Positions 3,041 to 24,120 of a stretch of DNA of 40,367 nucleotides are shown piece by piece. Every line of letters starts with the position of its first letter. Position 1 is the stretch's first letter. The notes beneath the pieces are model-generated. The model worked only from the letters and a program-made list of their open reading frames with translations. It was not told the DNA's origin and searched no databases. The stretch is from Novosphingobium sp. (GTDB lineage: Bacteria > Pseudomonadota > Alphaproteobacteria > Sphingomonadales > Sphingomonadaceae): the NCBI GenBank assembly GCA_015657645.1, contig JACDQK010000263.1, forward strand, positions 1-40,367, given 5' to 3'. Both the position numbers and the translations under genes were made by a program.

Positions 3041-3048
3041 GCCGGATG

Positions 3049-3216: not shown

Positions 3217-3368
3217 CCCCGCTCCTTTGATCGGAGAAATGGACGACCGTCGCCACTCGCTCAACCCCGATCTCGTTAGGGCTTTCACTCTCCTGCCCCG
3301 CAGCCGTTGTTTTGACAGTGACGACGCGGGCAGGATCAGGATAGGGGCAAGGCCGGACAGGAGGATGT

Positions 3369-5100: not shown

Positions 5101-5150
5101 GGCGCTAGTGAACAGTCCCAAAAGGGGCGGAACCTGGCGTTCACTTCGCC
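5101..5150. terminator. possible bidirectional hairpin between convergent FMO and uxaB/uxuB genes
   Basis: GGCG-ct-AGTGAAC ... GTTCACT-t-CGCC inverted repeat (7 bp + 4 bp around a small internal loop, 25-nt spacer); no U-tract. Confidence 0.35.
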
Positions 5151-6502
5151 AGCAAGTTGATCGCCGCTGCGTCAACCTCGGTCGGCAGCCAAAGATTTGA
5201 GACCATTCCGAGCCGTCCAAATAGTGCTGCAACCGGATCTGACCCGCGGGCAGCCGCGCCCAGTTCAAGCGCGCGCGGGTCATCAACCGGGCCGTTGACG
5301 CCGCGCAGGTGGCGGATCCAGGCGGCGATGCCTTGCAGGATCACCGGACATGCACGGCCCAAGGCCTGGTTAGCGGCCAGGGTTTCGAGCCAGCGTTGCG
5401 GCAGCTTCTGGCTGCCGTCCATCGCGATCTGGATCAGGCGGTGGTTGAGCGCCGGATTGGCGAAACGTTCGACCAGGGCGGTGGCATAAGCGGCCAGGTC
5501 CTGCCCTGCCCCGGCAGCGATCGTCGGCGCGGCCTCTTCGCGCAGCAGGGCTTCGACCAGCGGGCGGAGTTCCGGGTTGCCGATCGCCTCGTGGACATAG
5601 GTGTGGCCATGGGCCAGCCCGACATAGGCAAGGAACGAGTGCGCCCCGTTGAGCATCCGCAGCTTGGCGGTCTCGTAAGGGCGGACATCGCTGACCAGCT
5701 CGGCCCCCACCGCGTGCCAGCGCGGGCGCGGGCCGGCGAAGCGATCCTCGATCACCCATTGGCTGAACGGCTCGGTCAGCACCGCCGCCTGGTCGTCCAA
5801 CCCGATCCGGGCAGCAAGTTCGGTGCGGTCGGCATCGGTCGTCGCCGGCACGATCCGGTCGACCATGGTCGAGGGGCAAGTACAGGCCTGCTCGAACCAG
5901 GCCAGCAGGCCGGGATCATGGCGACCAAGGTATTCGTCCATCAGGCGGGCCAGCTGCTGGCCATTGTCGGCCAGGTTGTCGCAGGACAGTAGCGTCAGGC
6001 CAGCCAGGCCCGCGTCATGGCGCCGCCGCAGGGGCTCCGCGATCAGTGCGTAGAGCGAGCCGGCATCGGCCAGCGCAAAGTCCAGACTGCCGTCAGCTGC
6101 GCGGCAATAGCCTTTCTCGGTCACGGTCAGGCTGACGATGTGGGTGGCTGGGTCGGCAATCCGGTCAATCACCGCGCCGCGCTGCCCCTGCGCCACCAGC
6201 ACTTCGCGCACGGCCCCGACCAGCCGGCTGTTCCAGCCTGCCTCGGAGCGTTCGGTCACGGTATAGAGCCCGTCCTGCGGGTTCATCTGCTCGGCCACGG
6301 TTGGGGCGCGCAGCGAGACGCCGGTGATCGCCCAGTCGCGGTCGCCCGCAGCCATGGCGAGATCAGTGTACCAGGCCTGGTGGGCGCGGTGGAACGCGCC
6401 GATGCCCAGGTGAACGATGCCGCTGGCCTGGCCTGCGCGGTCATAGCCGAAGCGGGTCACCGCGCTGTCCAGCGCAGCCAGGTGGGCGAGCGACAGCCTC
6501 AC
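5141..6502 (-). CDS. mannitol dehydrogenase-family hexuronate reductase (UxuB/UxaB type)
   Basis: IVHLGIGAFHRAHQAWYTD...DGLYTVTER, K-x4-LNGAHSFLAY; GTG start overlaps uxaC stop (GTGA). Confidence 0.85.
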   Translation of the reverse strand: MRLSLAHLAALDSAVTRFGYDRAGQASGIVHLGIGAFHRAHQAWYTDLAMAAGDRDWAITGVSLRAPTVAEQMNPQDGLYTVTERSEAGWNSRLVGAVREVLVAQGQRGAVIDRIADPATHIVSLTVTEKGYCRAADGSLDFALADAGSLYALIAEPLRRRHDAGLAGLTLLSCDNLADNGQQLARLMDEYLGRHDPGLLAWFEQACTCPSTMVDRIVPATTDADRTELAARIGLDDQAAVLTEPFSQWVIEDRFAGPRPRWHAVGAELVSDVRPYETAKLRMLNGAHSFLAYVGLAHGHTYVHEAIGNPELRPLVEALLREEAAPTIAAGAGQDLAAYATALVERFANPALNHRLIQIAMDGSQKLPQRWLETLAANQALGRACPVILQGIAAWIRHLRGVNGPVDDPRALELGAAARGSDPVAALFGRLGMVSNLWLPTEVDAAAINLLAK

Positions 6503-7899
6503 AGCTTGTAAGCCGCCTTGGCGAGGTTGTAGGTCAGGTCTTGCGCCAGTTCGGCCGCTTCCCAGTCCTCCAGCCGGTGTTCCATCACCAGTTCGGCCAG
6601 GAAGCCGCAATCGATCCGCCGCGCCACGTCGTGCCGGGCCGGGATCGACAGGAAGGCGCGGGTATCGTCGTTGAAGCCGACGGTGTTGTAGAAGCCGGCC
6701 GTCTCGGTGCACATCCGGCGGAAGCGGCGCATGCCTTCGGGGCTGTCATGGAACCACCAGGCCGGGCCGAGCTTCAGGCAGGGATAGTGCCCGGCCAGCG
6801 GTGCTAGTTCGCGGGCATAGGCGCTCTCGTCCAGCGTAAAGAGGATCAGCGACAGGCGGTTGTCATTGCCGAAGCGGTCCAGCAGCGGCTTCAGCGCATG
6901 GACATAGTCGGTGCGGGTCGGGATATCGGCACCTTTGTCGCGCCCGAGAGCGGCGAAAACCGGCGCATTGTGGTTGCGGAAGGAGCCGGGGTGGAGCTGC
7001 ATGACGAGGCCGTCGTCAATGCTCATCGCCGCCATCTCGGTCAGCGTCTGGGCGCGGAACAGCTCGGCCTCGGCTGCGGTGCAGCTGCCGCTGGTGACCT
7101 TGGCGAACAGCGCCGCCACCTCGGCGACGGAGAGATTGGCGGTCTGGGCCGTCGGGTGGCCGTGATCGGTGCTGGTCGCGCCCATCGAGGCGAAGAAGGC
7201 GCGGCGCTGGCGATGCGCGGCCAGATAGCCCGTCCAGCTGAAAGTGTCTTCGCCGGTCAGGTCAGAGAAGGTCTTCAGGTTGTCGCGGAAGCCTTCGAAT
7301 TCCGGATCGACGACCGGGTCCGGGCGATAGGCGGTGATGACCTTGCCCGCCCAACCGGAGGCGCGGATCGCGGCGTGGTCGGCCAGGCTGTCGATCGGGC
7401 TTTCGGTCGTGGCGATCACTTCGATGTTGTAGCGTTCGAACAGCGCGCGCGGACGGAAGGCGGCGCTCGCCAGCATCTCCGTGATCGTGTCGAAATAGAG
7501 GTCGGACGTTTCGGCGCAGAGCTGAACGCCCATGCCGAAGACTTCGGCAAAGACCCAGTCGAGCCACATCCGCGATGGTGTGCCGCGGAACAGGAAGTAG
7601 CGTTCGGCGAACAGCCGCCAGCTTGTCCGGGGGTCTGCGGCGGGATTGCCGATACCCAGATCGGCCAGCGCCACGCCCTGCGAATAGAGCATCCGGAAGA
7701 CGTAATGGTCCGGGTGGAGCAGCAGTTCGGCGGCATTGCCGAAGTTGGCATTGGTCGCGAACCATTCCGGATCGGTATGGCCATGCGGGCTGATGATCGG
7801 CAGGTCCTTGACCTGCGTGTAGAGCGACCGCGCCAGCGCCCGCGTGGCCGGATCGGCCGGTAGCAGACGGTCGGGGTGGAGAGACAGAACAGATAACAC
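6499..7899 (-). CDS. uxaC: glucuronate/galacturonate isomerase
   Basis: LSLHPDRLLPADPATRALARSLYTQVKDLPIISPHGHTDPEWFATN..., LGPAWWFHDSPEGMRRFRRMCTETAGFYNTVGFNDDTRAFLSIPARHDVARR; GTG start inferred at 7899; the ORF-track start at 8325 is an over-extension into the MFS gene. Confidence 0.93.
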   Translation of the reverse strand: MLSVLSLHPDRLLPADPATRALARSLYTQVKDLPIISPHGHTDPEWFATNANFGNAAELLLHPDHYVFRMLYSQGVALADLGIGNPAADPRTSWRLFAERYFLFRGTPSRMWLDWVFAEVFGMGVQLCAETSDLYFDTITEMLASAAFRPRALFERYNIEVIATTESPIDSLADHAAIRASGWAGKVITAYRPDPVVDPEFEGFRDNLKTFSDLTGEDTFSWTGYLAAHRQRRAFFASMGATSTDHGHPTAQTANLSVAEVAALFAKVTSGSCTAAEAELFRAQTLTEMAAMSIDDGLVMQLHPGSFRNHNAPVFAALGRDKGADIPTRTDYVHALKPLLDRFGNDNRLSLILFTLDESAYARELAPLAGHYPCLKLGPAWWFHDSPEGMRRFRRMCTETAGFYNTVGFNDDTRAFLSIPARHDVARRIDCGFLAELVMEHRLEDWEAAELAQDLTYNLAKAAYKL

Positions 7900-7910: not shown

Positions 7911-9203
7911 TTATAGCTCGACCCGCTTCAGCCCCGGTGAGAGCAGGTGGATCGCCGCCACGGCCAGGAAGTAGGTCACCGTGCAGGCCATGAAGATCAG
8001 CGTGTAGTTGCCATTCGTCGCCTCGAGCACCAGCCCGGTCGACTTGGCCATGATCATCCCGCCGATGCCGCCGGCAAACCCGCCCAGCCCGATCGCCGAG
8101 CCGACCGCCCGCTTGGGGAACATGTCGGGCGGCAGCGAAAGCAGGTTGGAACTGAACGACTGGTGCCCGGCCAGTGCGATCCCGATCAGCAGGACGGCGA
8201 GCCACATGTTCTGCAAGCCCGAGACGAACAGCAGTGGCAGGACCATGCAGCCCGACAGCAGCAGGGTGATCTTGCGGGCAAAGTTGGGGCTGCTGCCGCG
8301 CTGGATCAGCTTGGACGAGACCCACCCGCCCATGACCGAACCGACATCGGACAAGAGGTACATGATGATCATCGGCAGCAGGACGACCTTAAGATCGACG
8401 CCGTAAGTCGTGCTGAAGTACTTCGGCAGCCAGAACAGCATGAGGAACCAGACCGGGTCGGTCAGGAACTTGGCCACGGCAAAGGCCCAGGCCTCACGCA
8501 TGGTGATCAGGCGGCGCCAGGGCACCTGCGCGATCTTCTCGGGTGGATCATGTTCGATCCAGCTCAGCTCGGCCTCGCTCACCGTCCCGCTCTCACGCGG
8601 GTTGGAATAGAGCTTCCACCACAGCGCCAGCAGGATCACCCCGAACAGGCCGGACCAGATAAAGGTCTCGCGCCAGCTCAGCCCCATCCAGGTCATGAAT
8701 ACCCATAGCGTCGGGGCGGTCAGGATCACGCCGATCGTCGTGCCCGAATTGACCCAGCCGATGGCCAGGGCGCGTTCTTTCTGCGGGAACCATTCGCTGC
8801 TTGAACGGACCACGGCCGGGAAATGCCCCGCCTCGCCCACGCCAAGCACCACGCGTGCGGCCATGAAGCTGGCAACGCTTGAGGCAAAGCCGTGCGCGAC
8901 ATGGCCGATCGTCCAGACGGTAATCGCGATGGCATAGCCGATCTTGGGCCCGAACCGGTCGATCAGCCAACCCATCAGCAGGAAGCCAAGCGCATAGGCT
9001 GCCTGGAAGGCGGTGACGATATTGCCGTAATCGTCTTCACTCCAGCCCAGTTCCTTGCCCAGCGAAGGGGCCAGCAGGCCTAGCATGGTCCGGTCGACGT
9101 AGTTGACCGTGGTCGCGAAGAACAGCAGCGCGATGATCATCCAGCGGCGGCCACCGCTCGGACTGGCAATGCTGGTCGGCGCGGCAGGTGTGCTCTCGGT
9201 CAT
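7911..9203 (-). CDS. MFS transporter, hexuronate (ExuT-like)
   Basis: 12-TM hydrophobic pattern, NYVDRTMLGLLAPSLGKELGWSEDDYG typical of the anion:cation symporter/ExuT family; located in the uxaC operon. Confidence 0.87.
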   Translation of the reverse strand: MTESTPAAPTSIASPSGGRRWMIIALLFFATTVNYVDRTMLGLLAPSLGKELGWSEDDYGNIVTAFQAAYALGFLLMGWLIDRFGPKIGYAIAITVWTIGHVAHGFASSVASFMAARVVLGVGEAGHFPAVVRSSSEWFPQKERALAIGWVNSGTTIGVILTAPTLWVFMTWMGLSWRETFIWSGLFGVILLALWWKLYSNPRESGTVSEAELSWIEHDPPEKIAQVPWRRLITMREAWAFAVAKFLTDPVWFLMLFWLPKYFSTTYGVDLKVVLLPMIIMYLLSDVGSVMGGWVSSKLIQRGSSPNFARKITLLLSGCMVLPLLFVSGLQNMWLAVLLIGIALAGHQSFSSNLLSLPPDMFPKRAVGSAIGLGGFAGGIGGMIMAKSTGLVLEATNGNYTLIFMACTVTYFLAVAAIHLLSPGLKRVEL

Positions 9204-9229
9204 CAGCCTCTCCGGTTATAGTCTGGCAC

Positions 9230-10025
9230 CTAGCGCGGCTGCGCCAGGGTTATTGTGCAGGATAGCGCGCCGTAGCTGCCGAAGCTGGCGGTCACGGTCT
9301 GGCCGGGGACGACCGGGTGAACCCCGGTGATCGCGCCGGTCGAAACCCACAGCCCCTGCGACAGGTCGAACCGCGCGCGCCAAATTGCCGAGCAGGAAGC
9401 GCACTGCGCCATAGGGTCCGTCAAGCATGGTCGCCGCCGTCGCCTCGCCCACCGTCTCGCCGTCGACTTCAGTCCGTACGACAATCGCGCAGAGGTCGAG
9501 CGTGCGCCAGCCGTCCAGCGCAGGGCCCATCACCACGCCGTGGTTGTTGCCGAAGTCCGAGACCGTCACCAGCGGGCCGTCGGCATTGATCCGAGCATAG
9601 GGCGAACTGGCGATCTCGATTCCCAGCCGCACTTCGTCGATGATCGCGCGGGTGCCGGCATCGTCGGTCGGCACCGCCCCGTTCCAGCCGGGTGCGACAT
9701 GGAGCAGCAGCTCCGCCTCGCCCGCCGCGAAACCCCCGGCGAAGACCGGCATGGCCGGTACTTCCCCATTGCCGGCAAAGACCACCTCGTCGGCAAAGAC
9801 GGGGCCGGACAGGCGATTGGAGCCGAGCTGGCCATCAAGCGGCGGCCAGATCCGGCCGACCTTCCAGCCCGCGACTGTGCGTCCGTCGAGCCGAATCGCC
9901 GCGTCCTGGATGCGATAGGCGGATGCCAGATCTTGCGGCGGAGCGCCCGGATAGTCGGCCAGCGCGCGGGCCGCGCGGCGCGCGCTTACGAAGGCCGTGG
10001 CAACGGATTGTGCCTGCTCAGTCAA
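9230..10025 (-). CDS. 2-keto-4-pentenoate hydratase/MhpD-like (FAH fold), apparent frameshift near 9369-9382
   Basis: GWKVGRIWPPLDGQLGSNRLSGPVF, ELLLHVAP, EIASSPYA; after the indel the protein resumes as RFDLSQGLWVSTGAITGVHPVVPGQTVTASFGSYG in the adjacent frame. Confidence 0.75.
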
Positions 10026-10086: not shown

Positions 10087-10100
10087 GGAAACCGGTGTCA
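10087..10100 (-). promoter_or_regulatory. LacI-family operator site 1 (TGACACCGGTTTCC on minus strand)
   Basis: Matches the other four copies of the motif; 62 bp upstream of the hydratase-MFS-uxaC-reductase operon. Confidence 0.75.
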
Positions 10101-10133
10101 TTGGCAAGTCTGCGTGTATGACAAGCGAGTAGA

Positions 10134-11615
10134 TCACAGCGTCACACCGCGTTTCCAGATGGCAATGGCGCGCTGTCCGGCGCGTTCGGCGGCGGTTGGC
10201 GTGCCGCTGGCGATCGCCGCCAGCTGCTCTGCAAAGGCCAGGTCTGCGGCCGCCAGCCCATCGCGCAAGGCCAGCGAGGCATCGAAATCGATCCAGTGCG
10301 GCTTGCCCTCGGCCAGCCCCTGATTCGAGGCGACCTTGACCGTTGGCACCGGGAAGCCAAGCGGCGTGCCGCGCCCGGTGGTGAACAGCACCAGTGTGGC
10401 CCCGGCCGCCGCCAGTGCCGTGGAAGAAACCGCGTCGTTGCCCGGCGCTTCGAGCAGGGTCAGCCCGGCCCGCTGCGCCTGCTCGCCATAACCGATCACA
10501 TCGACCAGCGGGGCATTGCCGCCCTTCTGCACCGCGCCGAGCGACTTCTCCTCGAGCGTGGTGATCCCGCCGGCCAGGTTACCAGGCGAGGGATTTTCCG
10601 AAACGGGCAACCCCTGGTCGAGGTAATAGCGCTTGAACCGGTTCACCAGGCCCGCAGCGGCATCGAACACCTCCGCTGAAACCGCCCGGTCGAGCAGGGC
10701 CTGCTCGGCCCCGAAGATTTCGGGAATTTCGGTCAGGATCGCCCTGCCCCCGGCGCTACACAGGCTATCGGCAAGCCGCCCGAGCAGCGGGTTGGCAGTC
10801 AGGCCGGAGAAGCCATCCGATCCGCCGCATTTGAGGCCAATCGTCAGCGCCGAGAACGGCAGTGGCTCGCGGCGAGCGGTCGCCGCCGCATTGACCAGTT
10901 CGTCAATCAGCGTTGCGGCTGCGGCCAGTTCATCGCCGGCGCTCTGGCTGGACAGCAGCCGGACCTTGCCGCGCGCAGCGGGCGGCACAGCTTCGAGCAG
11001 AGCGTCGAGCTGGTTGGATTCGCAGCCCAGCCCCAGCAGCAACACCCCCGCGGCATTGGGATTGGTCGCGAGGCCCGCCAGCAGCGCGCGCGTGCCATCT
11101 AGATCGTCGCCGAGCTGTGAGCAGCCATGGGGATGGGCAAAAGCATGGACGCCGTCGATCCGCCCGGCATGGCGTTCGCGCGCGGCGCGGGCCACTTCCT
11201 CGGCCGTGATCCCGACGCAGCCGACGCTCGGCAGGATCCATATCTCGTTGCGGGTAGCCGCGCGGCCATCGGCGCGGCAGTAGCCCTGCCAGGTTGGGAG
11301 ATCGCTAGTTGCCGCCACTGCTGCGACGCCTGCACCCGGCCGATAGACCAGCTCCCCAGCCAGTGCCGTCGCCAAGTTGTGGCTATGAACGTGCTCCCCG
11401 GCCGCAATCGCCGCGCTCGCTCGCCCGATCGGTTGGCCGTACTTCATCACTACCGAGCCAGCAGGCAGATCGACCAGCGCCAGCTTGTGTCCCTGCGGCA
11501 CGGGCGTGGAGAGCTGCACCCCCGCAACCGCCTCACCCGCTTCGAGCGGGCGCAGCGCTACGGCCACCGTATCGGCGGGATGGATTTGCAGCGCGGCAGG
11601 AAGCTTGTGCGACAT
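10134..11615 (-). CDS. uxaA: altronate dehydratase
   Basis: N-terminal SAF-like domain plus RNEIWILPSVGCVGITAEEVAR, FAHPHGCSQLGDD, ALTIGLKCGGSDGFSGLTANPLLG, FTTGRGTPLGFPVPTVKVASN. Confidence 0.93.
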   Translation of the reverse strand: MSHKLPAALQIHPADTVAVALRPLEAGEAVAGVQLSTPVPQGHKLALVDLPAGSVVMKYGQPIGRASAAIAAGEHVHSHNLATALAGELVYRPGAGVAAVAATSDLPTWQGYCRADGRAATRNEIWILPSVGCVGITAEEVARAARERHAGRIDGVHAFAHPHGCSQLGDDLDGTRALLAGLATNPNAAGVLLLGLGCESNQLDALLEAVPPAARGKVRLLSSQSAGDELAAAATLIDELVNAAATARREPLPFSALTIGLKCGGSDGFSGLTANPLLGRLADSLCSAGGRAILTEIPEIFGAEQALLDRAVSAEVFDAAAGLVNRFKRYYLDQGLPVSENPSPGNLAGGITTLEEKSLGAVQKGGNAPLVDVIGYGEQAQRAGLTLLEAPGNDAVSSTALAAAGATLVLFTTGRGTPLGFPVPTVKVASNQGLAEGKPHWIDFDASLALRDGLAAADLAFAEQLAAIASGTPTAAERAGQRAIAIWKRGVTL

Positions 11616-11630
11616 GGGCCCGTCATTTAT

Positions 11631-11644
11631 GGTAACCGGTGTCA
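11631..11644 (-). promoter_or_regulatory. LacI-family operator site 2 (TGACACCGGTTACC on minus strand)
   Basis: Exact 14-mer shared with sites 3 and 4; between divergent uxaA and the LacI regulator. Confidence 0.85.
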
Positions 11645-11719
11645 AGATTGCCTTTGCGCTTGCAAGAAGGCAAGGGGGATCACGCCCGGCCCACTGGTCG
11701 GCACGCGCAAGGGATAAAC

Positions 11720-12748
11720 ATGGCGGGCAATTCCGGCCGAGAAGGCAAACCGACGATCAATGACGTCGCGCGCCTGTCGGGCGTATCGAAGAAAACCGTC
11801 AGCCGGGTGATCAACCGCTCGCCGCTGCTTAACCAGGCGACGCGTGAAAAGGTTGAGGCAGTGATTGCCGAGCTGGGCTATGTCCCCAACCCGCAGGCCC
11901 GCCAGCTCGCCCTGCGGCGCAACTTCTCGCTCGGGCTGATCTACGACAACCCGAATGCGCAGATGGTGCTGAACTTTCAGGAAGGCGTCCTCGACGCGAT
12001 CCGCGGGACCGAGTTCGCGCTGGTGATCCACCCGGTCGATCGCCACGATCCCGGCCTGTTCGGCCAGATCCGCAAGTTCATCGAACAGCAGCGCTTCTAC
12101 GGCGTGATGGTCCTGCCGCCGCTGTCGGAGAACGATGCCTTCTTTGCGCTGCTGGATGAACTTGGCTGCAACTACGTCCGGATGGGCTCGGCTGAGCTCG
12201 ATGATCCGGCCCACCTGGTCCAGTCGAATGACCGGCAGGCCGTGCGCGGCGCGGTCGAGTACCTGATTGCCCAGGGTCACAAGCGGATCGGACTGGTCGA
12301 GGGGCCGGACGGCTTCCGCTCGGCCCACGAACGCCGCGAAGGCTGGCGTGAGGCTGTGACGGCGCATGGCTTGCCCGCCGACATCAGCCTGACCGCGCGC
12401 GGCAACTACACTTTCGAGACCGGCAAGGAAGCCGGCATTTCGCTCCTCGGCCTGCCGCACCCGCCCACCGCGATCTTCGCCAGCAACGATGTGATGGCCG
12501 CCGGCGTGGTCCACGTCGCACGCGAACGCGGGCTGGACGTGCCGGGCGATCTTTCGGTGGTCGGCTTCGACGATACGGCCATTGCCGCAACGATCTGGCC
12601 CCCGCTGACCACGGTGCGCTGGCCGATCCGGACCATGGCCCGCTCGGCGGCGCTGAAGCTGATCCACCCAGAAACGGCGGGTAAGGAGCAGTCCTTGTTC
12701 CCGACCGAATTCGTCCCCCGCGCCTCGGTTTCCCCGCCCAAGAACTGA
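11720..12748 (+). CDS. LacI-family transcriptional regulator
   Basis: N-terminal HTH TINDVARLSGVSKKTVSRVINRSPLLNQATREKV, periplasmic-binding-like effector domain, IFASNDVMAAG, VVGFDDT. Confidence 0.95.
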   Translation: MAGNSGREGKPTINDVARLSGVSKKTVSRVINRSPLLNQATREKVEAVIAELGYVPNPQARQLALRRNFSLGLIYDNPNAQMVLNFQEGVLDAIRGTEFALVIHPVDRHDPGLFGQIRKFIEQQRFYGVMVLPPLSENDAFFALLDELGCNYVRMGSAELDDPAHLVQSNDRQAVRGAVEYLIAQGHKRIGLVEGPDGFRSAHERREGWREAVTAHGLPADISLTARGNYTFETGKEAGISLLGLPHPPTAIFASNDVMAAGVVHVARERGLDVPGDLSVVGFDDTAIAATIWPPLTTVRWPIRTMARSAALKLIHPETAGKEQSLFPTEFVPRASVSPPKN

Positions 12749-12786
12749 ACTGACCTGGCCGGCAGAAGAATCCTTGATCTGGATAA

Positions 12787-12800
12787 TGACACCGGTTACC
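12787..12800 (+). promoter_or_regulatory. LacI-family operator site 3 (TGACACCGGTTACC)
   Basis: Exact 14-mer; 42 bp upstream of the RpiB-family isomerase start. Confidence 0.85.
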
Positions 12801-12841
12801 TAGGGCGCCAAACAAGCATCCAGCAGGAAAGACCCCATCCC

Positions 12842-13473
12842 ATGAAGATCGCCCTGATCATCGAGAACAGCCAGGCCGCCAAGAACGCGATTGTCCACGA
12901 AGCGCTGACTTCGGTTGCCGAACCGCTGGGCCACCAGGTGTTCAACTATGGGATGTACACCCCCGAAGACGCCGCCTCGCTGACCTATGTGATGAATGGC
13001 CTGCTCTCGGGCATCCTGCTGAACTCCGGCGCGGCGGACTTCGTGGTGACCGGCTGCGGCACCGGCATGGGTTCGATGCTGGCGGCCAATTCGATGCCCG
13101 GCGTGTTCTGCGGGCTGGTGATCGACCCGACCGACGCTTTCCTGTTCAGCCAGATCAATGACGGCAACGCGATTTCGATGCCCTATTCCAAGGGCTTCGG
13201 CTGGGCGGCCGAGCTGAACCTGCAGGACTGCTACCGCAAGATCTTCGAGAACGAGGGCGGTGCTGGCTATCCCAAGGAGCGTGCCCACTTCATGGCCGCC
13301 AACCGCAGCAAGCTGAAGGACATGAAGGCCGCCTCGTGCCGCGACATGCTGACCGTGCTGAAGTCGGTTGACCAGGAGCTGCTCAAGGCGCGATCGCCGG
13401 GGAGAAGTTTACCGAGCTGTTCTATCCGAACTGCCAGGATCAGGCGATCGCCGACTACCTGCGGGCGCTCTGA
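12842..13473 (+). CDS. RpiB/LacA/LacB-family sugar isomerase (candidate DhuI-type uronate ketol-isomerase), apparent 1-nt deletion near 13388
   Basis: MKIALIIENSQAAKNAIVHEAL..., VVTGCGTGMGSMLAAN; restoring one C at AAGGC(C)GCG gives ...LLKAAIAGEKFTELFYPNCQDQAIADYLRAL-stop. Confidence 0.82.
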
Positions 13474-14227
13474 TGGCGATCTCGTTCTCGCTTGCCGGCA
13501 GGCCGCGCTGGTCACCGGGGCCAATACCGGCATCGGCCAGGCCATCGCCGTGGCGCTGGCCGAGGCCGGGGCCGATGTAGCGCTGGCCGGGCGCAGCGAG
13601 CCGACCGAGACGCTGGCGCTTATCGCCGCGACCGGCCGCAAGGCGATCAATATCAAGGCCGACCTGTCCTCAATCGAGCCAGTCCAGCGCGTGGTGGACG
13701 AGGCGCTGGCGGGGCTCGGCCGGATCGACGTGCTGGTCAACAACGCCGGGATCATCCGCCGCGATGACCTTCTCCAGTTCTCGGAAGAAGACTGGGACGC
13801 GGTGATGGACACCAATCTAAAAACGCTGTTCTTCCTCAGCCAGGCCGCCGCGCGGCACATGGCGGAGCGCGGATCGGGCAAGATCATCAACATCGCCAGT
13901 CTGCTGACTTTCCAGGGCGGGATCCGCGTGCCGAGCTATGCCGCCGCCAAGTCGGGCGTGGGCGGGGTGACCAAGGCCATGGCCAACGAGCTCGCCCCCA
14001 AGGGCGTGCAGGTCAACGCCATCGCGCCGGGCTATATCGCCACCAACAATACTGCCGCACTGCAGGCCGACGAGACCCGCAACCGCCAGATCCTGGAGCG
14101 GATTCCGACCGGGCGCTGGGGCCGGCCCGAAGACATCGCCGGGGCGGCCGTGTTCCTGGCGGCGGAAGCGTCCGACTATGTCACCGGCCAGGTCCTGGCG
14201 GTGGACGGCGGCTGGCTGGCGCGGTAG
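13473..14227 (+). CDS. kduD: KduD-like 2-deoxy-D-gluconate/5-keto-4-deoxyuronate dehydrogenase (SDR), apparent 1-nt deletion near 13500
   Basis: ATG overlaps preceding stop (TGATG); restoring one A gives [77 protein letters not shown] is diagnostic for KduD-type SDRs. Confidence 0.85.
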
Positions 14228-14236
14228 CCTGACGGC

Positions 14237-15241
14237 ATGACAGTCACCTGCTTTGGCGAGCTGCTGCTCCGGCTGACCCCGCCGGGATCACAGCTGATGG
14301 TCCAGGCGGACAGCCTCGAACTCCATCCAGGCGGGGCAGAAGGCAACGTTGCGGTGGCACTCGCTAGCCTGAGTCACGCGGTCCGCTTTGCCGGACTGGT
14401 CAGCGACAATCCGCTGGGCGACCGGGTTGTCACCGCACTGCGCGGTGCCGGGGTCGACACGCAATTCCTGAGCCGCGCGCCGGGCCGGATGGGCCTCTAC
14501 TTCATGGAGGACGGCGCTGGGCCCCGCCCCTCCGCGATCACTTATGACCGCGCCGGCAGCGCCTTTGCCGAGGCTGAGCCTGCGGCGATCGACTTTGCCG
14601 GGGCACTACAGGGCGCGCGGCTGTTTCATACCGGCGGGATCACCCCGGCGCTTGGCCCCAAGGGCGTGGCGCTGGCCAAGGCCGCCAATGCCGCAGCCGT
14701 CGCCGCGAATGTCCCGATCTGCTTCGATGGCAATTACCGCGGCGCATTGTGGTCGAGCTGGGACTGCGATCCCGGCGCCGTGCTGCGCGAGTTGGTGGCC
14801 GATGCGACGATCCTGATCGGCAACCACCGCGACATTTCGTTGCTGCTCGGCCAGACGTTTTCCGACGACGGCCCGGACCGGCGGCGCGAGGCAGCGGAGG
14901 CGGCCTTTGCGGCCTTCCCCAGGCTTGAACTGATCGCCTCGACCGCACGCCACCTCGTCACCTCGGACCACCACCGCATCTCCGCGCGGGTCGACAGTCG
15001 CACGGCCGCGCACCAGACCGCCGAGATCGACGTGACCGGGATCGTCGAGCGGATCGGCACCGGCGATGCCTTTGCCGCTGGGGTGCTGCACGCCTGGTTG
15101 GCAGGCGGCGACGTGGCCACCATGGCCGAGACTGGCTTGGCCCTCACCGCGCTCAAGCACACCGTCCCCGGCGACATGTGCCTGGTAAACCGCGCCACGC
15201 TTGAAAGCTTCTCGGCCAACGGCGGCGATGTCCGGCGCTGA
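14237..15241 (+). CDS. kdgK: 2-keto-3-deoxygluconate kinase (PfkB family)
   Basis: FGELLLRLTPPG, HPGGAEGNVAVALASLSH, FDGNYRGALWSSWD, GTGDAFAAGVLHAWL. Confidence 0.9.
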   Translation: MTVTCFGELLLRLTPPGSQLMVQADSLELHPGGAEGNVAVALASLSHAVRFAGLVSDNPLGDRVVTALRGAGVDTQFLSRAPGRMGLYFMEDGAGPRPSAITYDRAGSAFAEAEPAAIDFAGALQGARLFHTGGITPALGPKGVALAKAANAAAVAANVPICFDGNYRGALWSSWDCDPGAVLRELVADATILIGNHRDISLLLGQTFSDDGPDRRREAAEAAFAAFPRLELIASTARHLVTSDHHRISARVDSRTAAHQTAEIDVTGIVERIGTGDAFAAGVLHAWLAGGDVATMAETGLALTALKHTVPGDMCLVNRATLESFSANGGDVRR

Positions 15242-16735
15242 GGGCTGGAGCCGGCGGGCCGTTCTGGCAGGCGCTGCGGCGTTGGCCTCAACTCCAGCCA
15301 GCGCGACAGTCCATTCGATCAGCTGTGAATACATTCCCGACGAAGTGCGCGCATCAGATGGGGTGTACCGCAGCCGTTCAAGCAACGCTTGCCAGAACGA
15401 CGCTGAAATATCGTTTCCCGGTATTCGCTACGCCCGGGCCAGCCGCTTTGCGCCGCCCGTCGCGCAGAGGATGGCTTCACAGCTGGAAGGGTTCGGGCCG
15501 GCCTGTCACCAGCCGGGCGCGCGCTATCGCCCGCAGGATGAGGACTGCCTGTTCCTGAACCTCTGGCGACCATCCAGGCCTGCACGGCGTCTGCGGCCGG
15601 TCATGGTCTATTTCCACGGTGGCGCCTATTCCACCGGCTCCGTAACCGATCCGCTCAACAATGGCGCAAAGCTGGCCGAGCGCGGCGATGTCGTCGTCGT
15701 CACGGTCAACCACCGCCTCAACGCCTTCGGCTATCTCTACCTGCCCGATCGCTTCCCCAGCAGTGGCAACAATGGCCAGCTCGACCTGATCTGTGCGCTG
15801 CAATGGGTCCAGCGCAATATCGCGGCATTCGGCGGCGATCCGGGCAATGTCACGGTCTTCGGCCAATCCGGCGGCGGGGCCAAGATTGCGACGCTGATGG
15901 CCATGCCCGAGGCCAAGGGCCTGTTTCACAAGGCGATCACGATGAGCGGCCAGCAGGTCACTGCGTCCGGCCCGCTTAACGCCCGCAAACGCGCCCAGGC
16001 GTTCCTCGACAAGCTGGGGGCCGATCCGGCGACCGCGCCGGTCGAAGCGCTGGTCGCGGCGCTCTCGGCGACCGATCCGGTCATGGGCGGCGGGGTCTAT
16101 ATGGGGCCGGTGCTCGACATGAGGCATCTGCACCGCCACCCGTTCTGGCCCGATCCGGCGCCGCAGGGCAATGCGATCCCGATGCTGCTGGGCAACACTG
16201 TGGCCGAGACGCGCGCCTTTTTCCCGCCCGATCACCCCCGGCTCAAGGGGCTCGACTGGTCAAACCTTGCCGAGCGGGCCGGGCCGGAGCTGAAGGTCGA
16301 TATCGATCCGCGCTGGGTGACGGAGCAGTTCCGCGCCCGCTACCCCGCCGAAAGTCCGGAACAGGTGTTCCACCGCATGGTCACGGCCGGCGTTCCTGGC
16401 GCGGCCAGGTTGAGGAAGCCGATGCTCGCGCCCGCGCCGGGGTGCGGCAGACCTGGGTCTACCAGCTCGATTTCGAACAGGCCAAGCACACCGACGACAT
16501 CGGCCTGTCCTTCGGCACCTTCGAGGAGCCCACCCCCGCGCGCCAGGCGATGAGCGACCGGATGATGGACGCCTTCGTCCGCTTTGCCCGCACCGGCAAT
16601 CCGGGCTGGTCACCCTATACCGTGCCGGGGCGCGAGACGATGGTGTTCGACAGAGTCAGCCGCGTGGTCAGGGACCCGCGCAGGTGGGAGCGGGAGCTGT
16701 TTGCCCGCGTGCCCTACATCCAGCCGGGGAGCTGA
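15228..16735 (+). CDS. type-B carboxylesterase with Tat-like signal peptide, apparent frameshift near 16390
   Basis: WSRRAVLAGAAALASTPASA leader; EDCLFLNLWRP, PVMVYFHGGAYSTGS, VTVFGQSGGGAKI; a missing base near 16389-16393 shifts the tail (RSWRGQVEEADARARAGVRQTWVYQLDFEQ...) into the ORF at 16442-16735. Confidence 0.82.
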
Positions 16736-16738
16736 GGC

Positions 16739-17128
16739 TCAGCGCTGGTTGTTGGGATAGCTGATGATCAGCGACAGGGGCTTCTTGCCGACCTGCCGAA
16801 TCCCGACCACCGCACCCTTGTAGAGATAGGCGGCCATGCCCCTGGTCAGCCGCGCGCGCTGGCCATCGGAGAGGACCTCGCCCTCTCCTTCGAGCACGTA
16901 ATAGACCTCGTCGTGATCGATCGGATGCTCGCCAATCGCGGCACCGCGGTGGAGGATCCGGCGACGGAATTCCATCGCGCGGGGCTGCGGCACGGCATCG
17001 CTGATCCGGTAGGCCGTGCTCATCCCGATTGCGCCGTGCGGCGGGGCCTCTTCGCGCCGGGTCGCGCGCTCGTCGATCACCGCCATCGGCGGCGCGGCGG
17101 CCAGCAGGAGCAGCGCGGCGAGGCTCAC
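16739..17128 (-). CDS. exported cupin-domain protein (KdgF-like role possible)
   Basis: Signal-peptide-like N-terminus MSLAALLLLAAAPPMA; cupin motif GEHPIDHDEVYYVLEGEGEVLSDGQ; ATGA overlap with pectate lyase. Confidence 0.75.
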   Translation of the reverse strand: MSLAALLLLAAAPPMAVIDERATRREEAPPHGAIGMSTAYRISDAVPQPRAMEFRRRILHRGAAIGEHPIDHDEVYYVLEGEGEVLSDGQRARLTRGMAAYLYKGAVVGIRQVGKKPLSLIISYPNNQR

Positions 17129-18474
17129 CGGGTGGCTCCGCGTGAGCTGCGATCGCGCGGGCTCAGCGCTTCTTGCGCGCCCGCCTTCTGGCCCGGATAG
17201 CGGCCAGACTTCGGCTGCATGGTGGCGAGATCCCAGTCAGCTTCGACGAAGGCCGCGCGGGTTTCGGCCGGGCGGGGATAGCCGGGGCCGACTTCCTTTT
17301 CGTCGTCGATGATATCGCCGCGCCCTTCTGCCACGAAGAACAGCACGCGGATATCGTCCGGCGCGCGGTCCCAGGGGCGAGCCCCGGCACTTGCGAGCAG
17401 GCTGGTCTCGACCTCGTCCGATGGCAGCACCGGCAGGCCCGACAGATCCGCTAGCGGCTTGGGCGCGCGGATCAGCTTGGCCTTGGTCTCACCATAGCGG
17501 CCAAATTCCGGCAGCGGATTGCCATGGCGATCGACAGCGCGATTGTCGCGCCCGTGGTATTTCAGGTCGCCATCGCCGCCCAGCATCAGGAACGGCAGGC
17601 CTGCGTCGGTATCATTGCCGCCGCGCATCACGTTGCCCACAGCAGTCAGTTCGCCGGTGACATAGGGCTGGCCAGTCCATTCCAGCGCCATCAGGTTGTA
17701 ATGCACTGCGCGGTGGCCGGGATTGTAGATCAGGTTGTTGACCATCAGCGCCTGGACCCCGCCCTTCAGCAGCGGGGACCGCTCGACATTGTGGGCCCAG
17801 ACATTGCGGTAGAAGACGATGCCGGTGGCATTGTCATGGATCAGCGAGCCCTTGGAATGCTCGCCCTTGGGGTGGCTGGCATTGGCCAGCCCCTCAGCCG
17901 CCAGATTGTTTCGGAACAGGATATTGTGGCTGGTCCCCTTGCGCCATTCCGCCACCGTCTTGCCGGTAAAGCGCGGGCCAGAGGCCGACATGTTCTCGTC
18001 GATCCCCCACAGGAAACTGTTGTGCTCGATGATGACATTGTAGGCCGCGACAGTGGACAAGGCGTCAGCCTCCCAGCCAGAGAACAGCGCTTGGCCATCG
18101 CGCCCGGTCATCACGCGCAGGTGGCTGATGATCACGTCATGGGCCTTGAGATCGATCCCGCCGCGGATGATCGTCACACCCGGCGAAGGCGCGGTCTGGC
18201 CGGCAATGGTGAGGAAGGGTTCGGAAATGGTCAGTGATTCCCGCGCAAGGTCGATCACCCCGCCCACTTCGAACACGACGACGCGCGGACCCTTGGCCTC
18301 GACCGCTTCCTTGAACGAACCCGGGCCGTCCTTGGCCAGGGTGGTAACGCGGATGATTCGCCCGCCCTGCCCGCCTTTGGTCGGCTCGACCGGCCCCGCC
18401 CAGACCGCCGCTGGCAGGACAAGTGCCTGCAAAGCCGCGAGGAATACCGCCAGCTTCAACCACCAATGCCGCAT
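17125..18474 (-). CDS. pectate lyase-like polysaccharide lyase (PL1-type right-handed beta-helix)
   Basis: Signal peptide MRHWWLKLAVFLAALQALVLPAAVWA; GGQGGRIIRVTTLAKDGPGSFKEAVEAKGPRVVVFEVGGVIDL, SEPFLTIAGQTAPSPGVTIIRGGIDLKAHDVIISHLRVMTG. Confidence 0.88.
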   Translation of the reverse strand: MRHWWLKLAVFLAALQALVLPAAVWAGPVEPTKGGQGGRIIRVTTLAKDGPGSFKEAVEAKGPRVVVFEVGGVIDLARESLTISEPFLTIAGQTAPSPGVTIIRGGIDLKAHDVIISHLRVMTGRDGQALFSGWEADALSTVAAYNVIIEHNSFLWGIDENMSASGPRFTGKTVAEWRKGTSHNILFRNNLAAEGLANASHPKGEHSKGSLIHDNATGIVFYRNVWAHNVERSPLLKGGVQALMVNNLIYNPGHRAVHYNLMALEWTGQPYVTGELTAVGNVMRGGNDTDAGLPFLMLGGDGDLKYHGRDNRAVDRHGNPLPEFGRYGETKAKLIRAPKPLADLSGLPVLPSDEVETSLLASAGARPWDRAPDDIRVLFFVAEGRGDIIDDEKEVGPGYPRPAETRAAFVEADWDLATMQPKSGRYPGQKAGAQEALSPRDRSSRGATR

Positions 18475-18532
18475 CGTCCAATCTCCCTTGCGCACCTTCT
18501 TGACAGAGCGCCGGAACGGGAGCAATACAAAA

Positions 18533-18546
18533 TGACACCGGTTACC
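18533..18546 (+). promoter_or_regulatory. LacI-family operator site 4 (TGACACCGGTTACC)
   Basis: Exact 14-mer in the divergent pectate lyase/TonB receptor intergenic region. Confidence 0.85.
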
Positions 18547-18631
18547 ATGCCGGTCAGAACGCAGCGGCCGCAAGACCGCACAGGGAGTAGAGGTGCTGGG
18601 GGAGTTGTGCGGCGACACGCATATCATCCTT

Positions 18632-18645
18632 TGACACCGGTATCA
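18632..18645 (+). promoter_or_regulatory. LacI-family operator site 5 (TGACACCGGTATCA)
   Basis: Same TGACACCGGT core, more symmetric right half; 35 bp upstream of the TonB receptor start. Confidence 0.8.
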
Positions 18646-18679: not shown

Positions 18680-21520
18680 ATGCGCAAGACCCATTCCAGC
18701 AAGACGCTGTTCAAGCTTGCCCTGATCGCCAGCACCGCGATCGCCGCGCCCACTGGCGCCTGGGCGCAGGATGCCGCTCCGCCCGCCGAGGATGCCCCGG
18801 CCGAAGAGATCATCGTCACTGGCTTCCGCCAGTCGCTGCAGGCCGCGATCAACCTCAAGAAGAATTCGGTCGCCGCGGTCGATGCGATCGTCGCCGAAGA
18901 CATCGCCAAGTTCCCCGACCAGAACCTGGCCGAATCGCTCCAGCGCATCCCCGGCATCTCGATCTCGCGCGATGCCGGCGAAGGCCGGGCAATCACTGTG
19001 CGCGGTCTGTCGAGCCAGTTCACCCGCGTCCGCGTCAACGGCATGGAAACGATCGCCACCTCGGTCGATGGCGCCAGCGCCAACCGCGACCGCGCGTTTG
19101 ACTTCAACGTCTTCGCCTCGGAGCTGTTCTCCAGCCTGGTCGTCCGCAAGACCGCCGAAGCCAGCCTCGATGAAGGTTCGCTCGGAGCAGTGGTCGATCT
19201 TAACACTGGCAACCCGCTGGCCGGCAAGGCCGGGCTGACCGCCGCCGCCTCGATCGTCGGTTCCTACAACGACCTGTCCGGCAATGTCGGCCCGCGCCTG
19301 GCGGGCCTCCTGTCATGGCGCAACGATGCCGATACCTTCGGCGTCTCGCTTTCGGCCGCCTATTCGAAGACCAAGGTGCTTGAGCTCGGCAACAATTCGG
19401 TCCGCTGGGCCCAGGCCCGGTTTGACAACGTCAACGGCACCAACTGCTTTACCACGCCGAACTCGGGCGGCAGCTATGTCGCCAGCGCGGCTTGCGATCA
19501 GGCCGCCCTCGCCTTTCACCCGCGCATTCCGCGTTACGGCGAAGTGGCCCATGATCGCGAGCGCCTGGGCCTGACCGGCTCGATCCAGTTCGCCCCGACC
19601 GAGGCAACCAAGCTGTCGATCGACGGCCTCTATTCGAAGTTCGATGCAGCCCGCGAAGAACAGTGGGGCGAAGTCCTGCTGCGTTCGAACGAGCGTTCGA
19701 TCAACGTTGTGAACCCGGTTTACGACGCCAACAAGAACATGATCTCGGCCACGCTCAACGACGCCTGGGTCCGCACCGAGCACTACCTGCGCAAGAGCAC
19801 CACCGAGTTCTACCAGATCGGGGCGACGCTCGATCAGGACGTGACCGACACGCTGCGCTTCACCTTGCTGGGCGGTATTTCCAAGTCGGACGCCGATATC
19901 CCGGTTGAAACCACCATCATCTTCGATGATCGCGACGCGCAGGGCTACTCGTTCGACTATTCGAACATGAAGTTTCCCAAGTTGACCTTCGGGACCAGCG
20001 TGGCCGATCCGGCCAATTTCCAACTGGCCGAAATCCGCGACCGCCCGTCGAACAACACCAACCGTTTCAAGACGGTCCAGCTGCGCACCGAATTCGACCT
20101 GACCGACAAGATCACTTTGAAGGCCGGTGCCGTCTGGCGCCGCTACAACTTTGACCTGGTCGCCTATACCCGTGACACGGCAGTTTGCGGCAATGGCGGC
20201 ACCAGCCTGGTCACCAGCACCTCGGGCACCATCGCCTGCTCACCCACCAGTCTGTTCGGCCCGACTGCAGTCTATGGCTTCCCGGTCACCGCCGCGCTGT
20301 CGCAGATGTTCAACCTCGGCAACGCCGGTCAGCCGGCCGGAAACACCAATTCTTGGCTGGTCCCCAATCTCGATGCGGCGGCAGCCTTCACCGGGCTCTA
20401 CAACCGTCCACTCGCAAACGACGCCGGCAATATCCGCGGCGTCCAGGAAACCACCAAGGGCGCCTACTTCCAGGCGGACCTGAAGGGCGACCTCGGCGGT
20501 TTGGAATATGCGCTCAATGCTGGGATCCGCTATGTGAAGACCGACCAGAGCTCCTATGGCCTGGTCAGTGGCACGCAGGCCACCGTCACCCGCGACTACG
20601 ATGACTGGCTCCCTTCGGCCAACCTGGCGCTGTTCCCGACGCAGAACGTGATCCTGCGTGCTGCCGTGGCCGAGGTGATGACCCGTCCGACGCTCGGCTC
20701 GCTGACGCCGGGCGGTTCGGCCGACGGCTTCAATTACCGCGTGACCAGCGGCAACCCGTTCCTCGAGCCCTATCGCGCCACCAATTATGACCTGGCCGCC
20801 GAATGGTACTTCGCTCCGCAGGCCGTGCTCTCGGTCGCCTGGTTCAAGAAGGACGTGAGCAGCTTCACCCAGTCGGCCTCGATCACTGGCGCCACTTTCA
20901 CCCAGACCGGCCTGCCGGCTTCGGTGCTGAGCCCCAGCTCGCCGGCTGCGCTCAACCCGGCGCAGCTCAGCCAGCCGATCTGGACGCTCTCGACCACGGT
21001 CAACGGCTCAGGCGCAACGCTCAACGGCTGGGAATTCGCTGCCCAGGTGCCGTTCAGCGCTTTCACCGATGGCTTCTTCAAGCACTTCGGCGTGATCGCC
21101 AACGCCACCTTCATCAGCTCGAACGCCACCTTCAACCTGCAGGGTCCGGCGATTGCCCCGGGCGGCGCGCTGCAGAACGTGACCGTAAGCAACACGCTGT
21201 CGAACGTCTCCAAGCAGGCCTACAACGGTACGCTCTACTACGATGACGGCAAGTTCGCGGCCCGCGTGATGCTGTCCTATCGTGGTCGCTACCACGAAGG
21301 CGCTTCGGGCACGGGCAACCTGCTTGAAGGCTATGGCGCCACCACCAACCTCGATGCTTCGATCCGCTACAAGCTGACCGACTGGATCGAACTATCGGTG
21401 GAAGGCAACAACCTGCTCGACACCTACCGCTACCGCTTCACTGACTTTGACGCGGATCGCAATTACGAGAACAACCATTTCGGCCGCACGATCCTGTTTG
21501 GGGCGCGGTTCAAGCTCTGA
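18680..21520 (+). CDS. TonB-dependent receptor (oligogalacturonide uptake candidate)
   Basis: Signal peptide; TonB-box-like EEIIVTGFRQSL; plug domain VAEDIAKFPDQNLAESLQRIPGISISRDAGEGRAITVRGLSSQFTRVRVNGMET; C-terminal beta-barrel ending ...GRTILFGARFKL; 946 aa. Confidence 0.95.
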   Translation: MRKTHSSKTLFKLALIASTAIAAPTGAWAQDAAPPAEDAPAEEIIVTGFRQSLQAAINLKKNSVAAVDAIVAEDIAKFPDQNLAESLQRIPGISISRDAGEGRAITVRGLSSQFTRVRVNGMETIATSVDGASANRDRAFDFNVFASELFSSLVVRKTAEASLDEGSLGAVVDLNTGNPLAGKAGLTAAASIVGSYNDLSGNVGPRLAGLLSWRNDADTFGVSLSAAYSKTKVLELGNNSVRWAQARFDNVNGTNCFTTPNSGGSYVASAACDQAALAFHPRIPRYGEVAHDRERLGLTGSIQFAPTEATKLSIDGLYSKFDAAREEQWGEVLLRSNERSINVVNPVYDANKNMISATLNDAWVRTEHYLRKSTTEFYQIGATLDQDVTDTLRFTLLGGISKSDADIPVETTIIFDDRDAQGYSFDYSNMKFPKLTFGTSVADPANFQLAEIRDRPSNNTNRFKTVQLRTEFDLTDKITLKAGAVWRRYNFDLVAYTRDTAVCGNGGTSLVTSTSGTIACSPTSLFGPTAVYGFPVTAALSQMFNLGNAGQPAGNTNSWLVPNLDAAAAFTGLYNRPLANDAGNIRGVQETTKGAYFQADLKGDLGGLEYALNAGIRYVKTDQSSYGLVSGTQATVTRDYDDWLPSANLALFPTQNVILRAAVAEVMTRPTLGSLTPGGSADGFNYRVTSGNPFLEPYRATNYDLAAEWYFAPQAVLSVAWFKKDVSSFTQSASITGATFTQTGLPASVLSPSSPAALNPAQLSQPIWTLSTTVNGSGATLNGWEFAAQVPFSAFTDGFFKHFGVIANATFISSNATFNLQGPAIAPGGALQNVTVSNTLSNVSKQAYNGTLYYDDGKFAARVMLSYRGRYHEGASGTGNLLEGYGATTNLDASIRYKLTDWIELSVEGNNLLDTYRYRFTDFDADRNYENNHFGRTILFGARFKL

Positions 21521-21550: not shown

Positions 21551-22546
21551 ATGACGATTGACCGCAGGTCGCTGATTGTCGCGGGGCTGGCCTCCACCCT
21601 TACCGCACGGGCGGGGGCGCAAACGCCTCCGCCCGTTGCCATTGGCGCGCTGCCCCCTGGCCAGCCGCAGCCGGTCGAAACGATCGACCTCTGGCCCGCC
21701 GGTGCGCCCGGCCTGCCCCCGAAGGCGCTGACCGAGACGGTCAACGAACGCTCAACCGATCCGCTCGTCACCGATCGCGCAGTCTTCGGTATCACCCGCC
21801 CGCGCCTGGCCGTGTTCCGGCCCGACCGGCCCAATGGCGCCGCTGTGCTCCTCACGCCCGGCGGCGGCTATCGCTGGGTCGTGGTCGACAAGGAGGGCTA
21901 CGAGATGGCGCGCTGGCTGGCCGCGCGCGGTTTCACCGCCTTTGTCCTGTTCTACCGCCTGCCCGGCGAAGGCTGGGCCGCCGGACCCGACGTCCCGCTG
22001 GCCGATGCCCAGCGCGCCATGCGCCTGATCCGCCACCGCTCGCGCGACTTTGCCGTGGATCCGGAGCGCGTTGCCGCCATGGGCTTTTCCGCTGGCGGCC
22101 ATGTCTGCGCCAGCCTCTCCACGCGCTTTGCCGCCAGTGTCTACCAGCCGGTCGATGCCGCCGATCGTCTTTCCGCCAAGCCGCACAGCGCCGCGCCGAT
22201 CTATCCGGTGGTCAGCATGGACCCGACGATTGCCCATCCCGGCTCGCGCCAATTGCTGCTCGGCGCTACACCGACGCCTGAGCGGGAGGCGCTCTATTCG
22301 CCCGACCGGCAGGTGCCGGCCGACGCCCCGCCGCATTTCCTGCTGCATGCCGAGGATGACGATGTCGTCCCGGCCGAAAATTCCCTGCGGCTGCGCGCGG
22401 CGCTCAAGGCACGCGGTATCGCGGTTGAAACGCACCTCTTTGCCAATGGCGGCCATGGCTTTGGCCTGCGCAAGGCGGTTGGCAAGCCGGCCGAGGCCTG
22501 GCCTGACTTGTGGCGCGCCTGGGCCCGCACTGTGGGTCTTGGCTGA
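21551..22546 (+). CDS. alpha/beta hydrolase, acetylesterase-like, with signal peptide
   Basis: RRSLIVAGLASTLTARAGA leader; LLTPGGGYRWVVVDKEGYEMARWLAARGFTAFVLFYRLP; GFSAGGHVCASLSTRF; HAEDDDVVPAENSLRL; HGFGLR. Confidence 0.87.
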   Translation: MTIDRRSLIVAGLASTLTARAGAQTPPPVAIGALPPGQPQPVETIDLWPAGAPGLPPKALTETVNERSTDPLVTDRAVFGITRPRLAVFRPDRPNGAAVLLTPGGGYRWVVVDKEGYEMARWLAARGFTAFVLFYRLPGEGWAAGPDVPLADAQRAMRLIRHRSRDFAVDPERVAAMGFSAGGHVCASLSTRFAASVYQPVDAADRLSAKPHSAAPIYPVVSMDPTIAHPGSRQLLLGATPTPEREALYSPDRQVPADAPPHFLLHAEDDDVVPAENSLRLRAALKARGIAVETHLFANGGHGFGLRKAVGKPAEAWPDLWRAWARTVGLG

Positions 22547-24120
22547 TGGACCGGCGCGACCTGCTCAAGGCCGGGGTGCTGGCCCCGCTGGTCTCGGCCC
22601 TGCCGCTCAGCGCCGCCGCACCGGTCCGCACTGGGATCGAAGGCCAGCGCCAGCCCGACCTGGGTAATGGCCGCTTCCTCAACCCGGTCCTCTCGGGCGA
22701 CCGGCCTGACCCGGCGGTGCTGAAGGACGGCGACGACTATTACCTGACCTTCTCCAGCTTCGATGCCTATCCCGGCCTGACGATCTGGCACAGCCGCGAT
22801 TTGGTGAACTGGCAGCCGCGCAAGGCTGCGCTCCACCGCAATATCGGTTCGGTCTGGGCGGTCAGTCTGGAGAAGCACGCGGGGCGCTACTTCATCTACA
22901 TCCCGGTCAAGGCCCAGCCGCGGAACGACATCTATGTGATCTGGGCCGACCATATCGACGGACCATGGAGCGATCCGCTTCCCCTTGGCCTGCACAGCCG
23001 CATCGACCCCTGCCACGCCGTGGCCGAGGACGGTTCGCGCTGGCTGTTCCTTTCCGGCGGGGACCGCGTCCGACTGGCGGACGATGGCCTGTCGGTCACC
23101 GGGCCGGTCGAGCATGTCTACGATCCCTGGCGCTATCCCGATACCTGGGATGTCGAAGGCTTCTCCCCCGAAGGCCCCTCGATCACCGTCCGTGGCGGCT
23201 GGTACTATCTGATCACCGCAGTCGGCGGAACGGCTGGGCCGCCTACCGGGCATATGGTGATCGCCGCCCGCTCACGCTCGCTTCACGGCCCGTGGGAACA
23301 GCACCCCCGTAATCCGCTGGTGCGCACCCTATCGGCGGGCGAGGCCTGGTGGTCGCGCGGACACGCGTCGCTGGTTGAAGGGCCGGATGGTTCGTGGTGG
23401 TCGCTCTATCATGGTTATGCGGCGGGCTTCTGGACGCTGGGCCGCCAATGCCTGCTCGACCCCGTCGAATGGACCCGCGACGGCTGGTTCCGGATGACCG
23501 GCGGCGACCTCTCACGTCCGATCCGCAAGCCCCGCGGCGGGCAGGCCCTGCCCCACGGCATGGCCCTGTCCGACGATTTCAGCGCGCCGCTGTTGCTCGG
23601 CTCCAAATGGACCTTCTTCCGCCCCGCCCCGGACGAGACCGACCGCATCCGGGTGGCAGACGGCGCGCTGCACCTTACCGGCAAGGGCCTCGCTCCCTCC
23701 AGCGGCTCGCCCTTGCTGTTGACGGCTGGTGATCGCTCCTACCAGTTCGAATGCGATATCGAGCTGGCCGCCGGCGCCACAGCCGGCTTGGTGCTGTTCT
23801 ATGACGACAAGCTCTATTGCGGGCTGGGTTTCGACGAGCGCCGCTTCGTCACTCACCAGTACGGGATCGAGCGCGGCCGCCCGGCCAATCCCCATGGGCG
23901 GCGGATGAAGCTACGCGTCACCAACCGCGAACACATCGTCGCGTTCCACACCAGCGGCGATGGCGGGCAGACCTGGCAACGCTTTGACCGCGGCATGGAA
24001 GTATCCGGTTATCATCACAACGTGCGCGGCGGCTTCCTAGCGCTCAAGCCGGGGCTCTACGCCGCTGGCCCCGGCGCCTGCACTTTCCGCGATTTCCGGT
24101 ACACAGCCCTGCGGGATTGA
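22546..24120 (+). CDS. GH43-like glycoside hydrolase with C-terminal concanavalin-like domain
   Basis: TGATG overlap with upstream hydrolase; NPVLSGDRPDPAVLKDGDDYYLTFSSF, RIDPCHAV, VEGFSPEGPSITVRGGWYYLITAVGG; DRRDLLKAG leader. Confidence 0.87.
   Translation: MDRRDLLKAGVLAPLVSALPLSAAAPVRTGIEGQRQPDLGNGRFLNPVLSGDRPDPAVLKDGDDYYLTFSSFDAYPGLTIWHSRDLVNWQPRKAALHRNIGSVWAVSLEKHAGRYFIYIPVKAQPRNDIYVIWADHIDGPWSDPLPLGLHSRIDPCHAVAEDGSRWLFLSGGDRVRLADDGLSVTGPVEHVYDPWRYPDTWDVEGFSPEGPSITVRGGWYYLITAVGGTAGPPTGHMVIAARSRSLHGPWEQHPRNPLVRTLSAGEAWWSRGHASLVEGPDGSWWSLYHGYAAGFWTLGRQCLLDPVEWTRDGWFRMTGGDLSRPIRKPRGGQALPHGMALSDDFSAPLLLGSKWTFFRPAPDETDRIRVADGALHLTGKGLAPSSGSPLLLTAGDRSYQFECDIELAAGATAGLVLFYDDKLYCGLGFDERRFVTHQYGIERGRPANPHGRRMKLRVTNREHIVAFHTSGDGGQTWQRFDRGMEVSGYHHNVRGGFLALKPGLYAAGPGACTFRDFRYTALRD

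Follow-up and report, generated by a model that had tools for sequence, protein, structure and literature searches.

A predicted LacI-family pectin/galacturonate regulon in Novosphingobium and related Sphingomonadaceae

We found that five short sites in the window (the whole 40,367-nucleotide stretch of Novosphingobium sp. DNA that was analysed) are very probably operators of the LacI-family protein encoded in their midst at 11720–12748, and that they mark out a predicted local pectin/galacturonate regulon, as the original prediction had proposed. This reading draws on the co-inheritance of motif and regulator gene, the way the sites keep to the same promoters across dozens of species, the invariant recognition helix of the regulator and the placement of the sites over promoter-like elements.

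Five predicted operators in intergenic regions

The five predicted operators are positioned as follows:

10087–10100, minus strand: operator 1, TGACACCGGTTTCC, 61 bases upstream of the hydratase start
11631–11644, minus strand: operator 2, TGACACCGGTTACC, in the gap between two divergent genes, 15 bases upstream of uxaA and 75 upstream of lacI
12787–12800, plus strand: operator 3, TGACACCGGTTACC, 41 bases upstream of dhuI
18533–18546, plus strand: operator 4, TGACACCGGTTACC, in the gap between two divergent genes, 58 bases from pel and 133 from the TonB receptor gene
18632–18645, plus strand: operator 5, TGACACCGGTATCA, 34 bases upstream of the TonB receptor start

Exact matches confirmed the positions and strands originally given for the five motif copies, as well as their intergenic location: the four gaps that hold them together account for 510 of the 8,559 bases spanned (6%). 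A scan of the whole 3,007,229-base genome, suggested at the outset as a check, retrieved TGACACCGGTNNCM exactly five times, always at operators 1–5 and nowhere else, and the reversed control pattern not once. With up to three mismatches allowed, the window holds eight matches against a shuffle mean of 1.84, and none of 100 shuffles reached eight. Since the motif has only five exact matches in the genome, and these fall in gaps forming 6% of the span, the arrangement is well beyond chance.

The central CG typical of LacI-family operators is present in all five sites, and the core forms the pseudo-palindrome around it that had been described before. Within the core, ACCGGT is fully symmetric, and overall 8–12 of the 14 positions are symmetric, with a degenerate right arm. 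The same degeneracy ([T/G][A/T]C[C/A]) is found in a matrix of 140 sites, the left part of which is invariant because the sites were gathered by searching for TGA[CT]ACCGGT.

Nearly all one-mismatch sites examined elsewhere in the genome fall within coding-like ORFs. Only two lie outside such ORFs; one of them has hslU immediately upstream, neither has a recognized pectin gene nearby, and we rejected them as further members of the regulon. The proposed extension to GH28 and GH105 genes does not apply to this genome, in which the models for GH28, GH88/105 and PL22 gave no match; the regulon is thus local.

Gene content of the locus

The genes in and around the site-bearing region are:

5141–6490, minus strand: UxuB/UxaB-like reductase of the mannitol-dehydrogenase type (start approximate)
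6499–7899, minus strand: UxaC-like uronate isomerase
7911–9203, minus strand: MFS transporter of the hexuronate type (best model TIGR00893)
9216–10025, minus strand: divergent hydratase of the FAH superfamily, MhpD-like, first gene of the operon; in the assembly its C-terminus falls out of frame
10134–11615, minus strand: uxaA-type altronate/galactarate dehydratase
11720–12748, plus strand: LacI-family regulator of 342 aa, with recognition helix VSKKTVSRVIN, hinge NPQARQLALRRN and sugar-binding core
12842–13471, plus strand: dhuI, isomerase of the RpiB family, related to Streptococcus agalactiae gbs1892 (4u8e) and 3c5y
13468–14227, plus strand: kduD (TIGR01832 above the curated cut-off), its ATG overlapping the dhuI stop
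14237–15241, plus strand: sugar kinase resembling KDG kinase (kdgK)
15201–16736, plus strand: carboxylesterase-family gene, frameshift near 16392
16739–17128, minus strand: cupin-domain protein, in one operon with pel
17125–18474, minus strand: PelZ-like pectate lyase (pel)
18680–21520, plus strand: TonB-dependent receptor (TIGR01782)
21551–22546, plus strand: alpha/beta hydrolase
22540–24120, plus strand: GH43 glycosidase

The UxaC and reductase names come from inspection of the translations and from conservation in relatives. The closest structures to the RpiB-like part are 3c5y and 4u8e, both of the RpiB family; we take the latter, S. agalactiae gbs1892, to be DhuI. In S. agalactiae, DhuI is an isomerase turning DHU into DK-II, and dhuI-kduD clusters have been reported only in Sphingomonadaceae and Erythrobacteraceae (PMC12838403).

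Compared with the related locus L065, several reading frames carry one-base deletions, namely at 9373–9385 (hydratase), 13390 (dhuI, the end of which is shifted), 13501 (kduD) and 16392 (esterase), and some of them sit in short runs of one base. These breaks look more like assembly or sequencing errors than gene decay. The transcription units originally drawn are all covered by the sites, but the "rpiB-like-kduD" gene among them did not stand: two one-base deletions create the mere appearance of an RpiB-KduD fusion enzyme, and dhuI and kduD are separate adjacent genes.

The MFS transporter shares 80–91% identity with its counterparts in L065, L096 and L100 but only some 50% with those that hold the same operon position in other loci, a split that suggests replacement of the transporter within the regulon. 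The flanks (1481–5081 and 25533–33340) hold AMP-binding acyl-CoA synthetases, an FMO-like monooxygenase, a Rieske ring-hydroxylating oxygenase, an acyl-CoA dehydrogenase and an SDR, and are an unrelated neighbourhood of aromatic or steroid-type degradation.

The regulator

The regulator matches PF00356 (helix-turn-helix, 1.3e-19) and PF13377 (periplasmic-binding-like core, 7.7e-36) and aligns with the structures of LacI, CcpA and RbsR. Its alignment with Escherichia coli LacI spans residues 5–332, and the hinge, with its minor-groove leucine region, aligns to that of LacI. Both domain content and the combination of hinge and operator thus place the predicted protein among LacI-family transcription factors. 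It shares the domain plan of E. coli LacI but differs from it in the recognition residues (KK instead of YQ), in the missing C-terminal tetramerization helix and in its predicted targets, which are several dispersed operons rather than one. The recognition helix is identical in all 14 homologues read.

Motif and regulator across the family

We sampled 399 genomes of the family and counted as a LacI homologue any match at E below 1e-100 (at least 52% identity). Such a homologue is present in 121 genomes, and 119 of these contain at least two exact motif copies, as against 38 of the 278 genomes that lack it. Mean copy numbers are 4.51 with the homologue and 0.64 without, while those of the reversed control pattern hardly differ (0.33 and 0.29). 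The association gives a Fisher p of about 1e-64, a value which ignores shared ancestry and so overstates independence, although the contrast still spans many genera. At least three motif copies occur in 15 of the 278 genomes without a close homologue, to which chance, fragments or paralogues contribute.

The positions of the motif were compared in 37 Sphingomonadaceae loci (L065–L101), where it recurs upstream of the hydratase gene, of uxaA/lacI, of dhuI-kduD or uxaC, and of pel/TonB receptor genes. In nearly all of them lacI is flanked by two of the sites. Where the genes are arranged differently, the sites remain at promoters: in five loci, mostly of Sphingomonas (L077, L079, L080, L082 and L101), the site downstream of lacI precedes uxaC, and in Sphingobium loci the hydratase gene replaces uxaA opposite lacI with the operator kept. 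The operator stands out in intergenic alignments across species as a block that is invariant or nearly so; sites and regulator are therefore conserved together in several species. The more distant LacI loci (L102–L138) contain no exact motif copy.

These data bear on whether the sites might be bound by a different protein, a LacI paralogue or an unlinked factor, with the local LacI being a passenger or regulating only itself. The genome does encode five further proteins matching PF00356, and some genomes without a close homologue carry several motif copies. Against this stand the co-occurrence of motif and homologue, the location of lacI between two sites, and the recognition helices of the remaining LacI proteins read, all different from VSKKTVSRVIN. 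We therefore consider binding by another regulator very unlikely and retain the local LacI protein as the predicted binder.

In one genome (G073) the motif has 31 exact copies, roughly sevenfold the mean of regulator-bearing genomes. Ten of these loci were examined, and in most of them the copy falls within a coding-like ORF, so that we propose no expanded regulon in this case.

Promoter-like elements and direction of control

A consensus promoter scan called no sigma-70 site, and the promoter elements described here thus rest on conservation, with the -10 elements assigned by our own reading of the alignments. Operator 1 lies within the 17-base spacer of the conserved promoter-like TTGCCA-N17-TAGCCA. 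In 30 of 33 loci a TTG starts 7 bases before this hydratase operator, and a TA follows it at the distance that gives a 17-base spacer. Operator 2 directly follows the -10-like CAATCT of the uxaA element (TTGCCT-N17-CAATCT), operator 3 overlaps TTGATC-N17-TACCTA, and operator 4 begins four bases after the conserved TTGACA-N17-CAATAC element of the TonB receptor gene. At the dhuI/uxaC promoter, 22 of 36 loci have a TTG that starts 13 bases ahead of the operator, and loci of the Novosphingobium type have a TACC(A/T)(A/T)-like sequence 17 bases further, partly inside the operator. About one TTG at such a fixed offset would be expected in either set. The predicted operators are thus located over or just after promoter-like elements, which is the geometry of steric repression, and repression as the direction of control is well supported by the site positions.

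A regulator with a dual or activating role, aiding RNA polymerase when ligand-bound, is very improbable in our view: some LacI-family proteins are dual, and PckR was predicted to be so (PMC4052901), but the readable sites here are in or just after a promoter-like spacer or -10 region and none is upstream of a -35 element. That the motif is itself a promoter or other shared element, its TGACA resembling a -35 hexamer and TTGACACCGG containing TTGACA at sites 2 and 5, is hardly credible, as the motif faces either way with respect to the genes, stands at varying distances from their starts (15–133 bases), has separate conserved -35/-10-like elements nearby, is confined to this locus in the genome, and tracks the LacI gene in its presence.

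Between operator 2 and lacI (11650–11690), many aligned species share a conserved inverted repeat, TTGCCTT ... AAGGCAA, part of which may be the uxaA -35 and -10 region.

Proposed circuit

The predicted operators lie upstream of genes for uronate catabolism and transport and in the region of the regulator gene itself, as in LacI regulons for uronates and pectin. We infer binding, repression, ligand response and autoregulation by the regulator along the following lines. As long as pectin is absent, the repressor would sit on each site, probably as a dimer given the missing tetramerization helix, and cover a -35/-10 spacer, a -10 element or a transcription start. It would thereby bar RNA polymerase from the promoters of hydratase-MFS-uxaC-reductase and of uxaA (and lacI itself), and likewise from those of dhuI-kduD-kdgK-esterase, of pel-cupin and of the operon of the TonB receptor. 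Upon uronate entry, an intermediate would bind the core domain and the repressor would release the DNA. From pathway knowledge, the effector is most plausibly 2-keto-3-deoxygluconate (KDG), as the UxaC-UxaA and DhuI-KduD branches both lead to it and differences in gene set from genus to genus mainly concern the galacturonate branch.

Relation to known systems

LacI-family regulators of uronate metabolism have been assigned to six non-orthologous groups, ExuR, KdgR, UxaR and UxuR among them (Ravcheev et al., 2014, PMC4052901). These four groups likewise control galacturonate, glucuronate and KDG genes through short palindromic sites. The main text of that study makes no mention of Sphingomonadales or pectin, and the present regulator may equal a group listed in its supplement or in RegPrecise. 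The TonB-dependent carbohydrate utilization loci of Xanthomonas and Caulobacter (Blanvillain et al., 2007, PMC1790865) share with our locus a TonB receptor, an inner-membrane MFS transporter, a degradative enzyme and a LacI regulator, but the characterized example is a sucrose locus, whereas the present one concerns pectin/galacturonate. The related LacI in Pseudoxanthomonas is only about 38% identical to ours and comes with no exact motif copy. Type G dhuI-kduD clusters (PMC12838403, 2025) contain the same gene pair, but LacI is not mentioned in that text, so that regulation is the addition made here. Among the articles searched, as distinct from RegPrecise and paper supplements, we found no publication on the motif or on a sphingomonad pectin regulon. 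The circuit is a fairly ordinary LacI-family uronate/pectin regulon of known type, which in Sphingomonadaceae seems to be undescribed.

For the study of pectin use in Sphingomonadaceae, the locus supplies a regulator, an operator and a set of genes that can be tested, and in roughly one third of the family genomes sampled the operator can serve to predict pathway genes.

The hydratase

The operator also singles out, as a constant member of the regulon, a hydratase of unassigned role. Its gene is the operator-bearing head of an operon in 33 loci. Most members have no Pfam match, and a sequence search of the PDB with the hydratase gave none. We tentatively raise the possibility, which we think doubtful, that this enzyme, encoded by the gene most constantly under the operator, performs an unrecognized step of pectin/uronate catabolism in Sphingomonadaceae, and that the true effector may be a substrate or product of this enzyme. 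In the pectin pathway as known, no step requires the hydratase.
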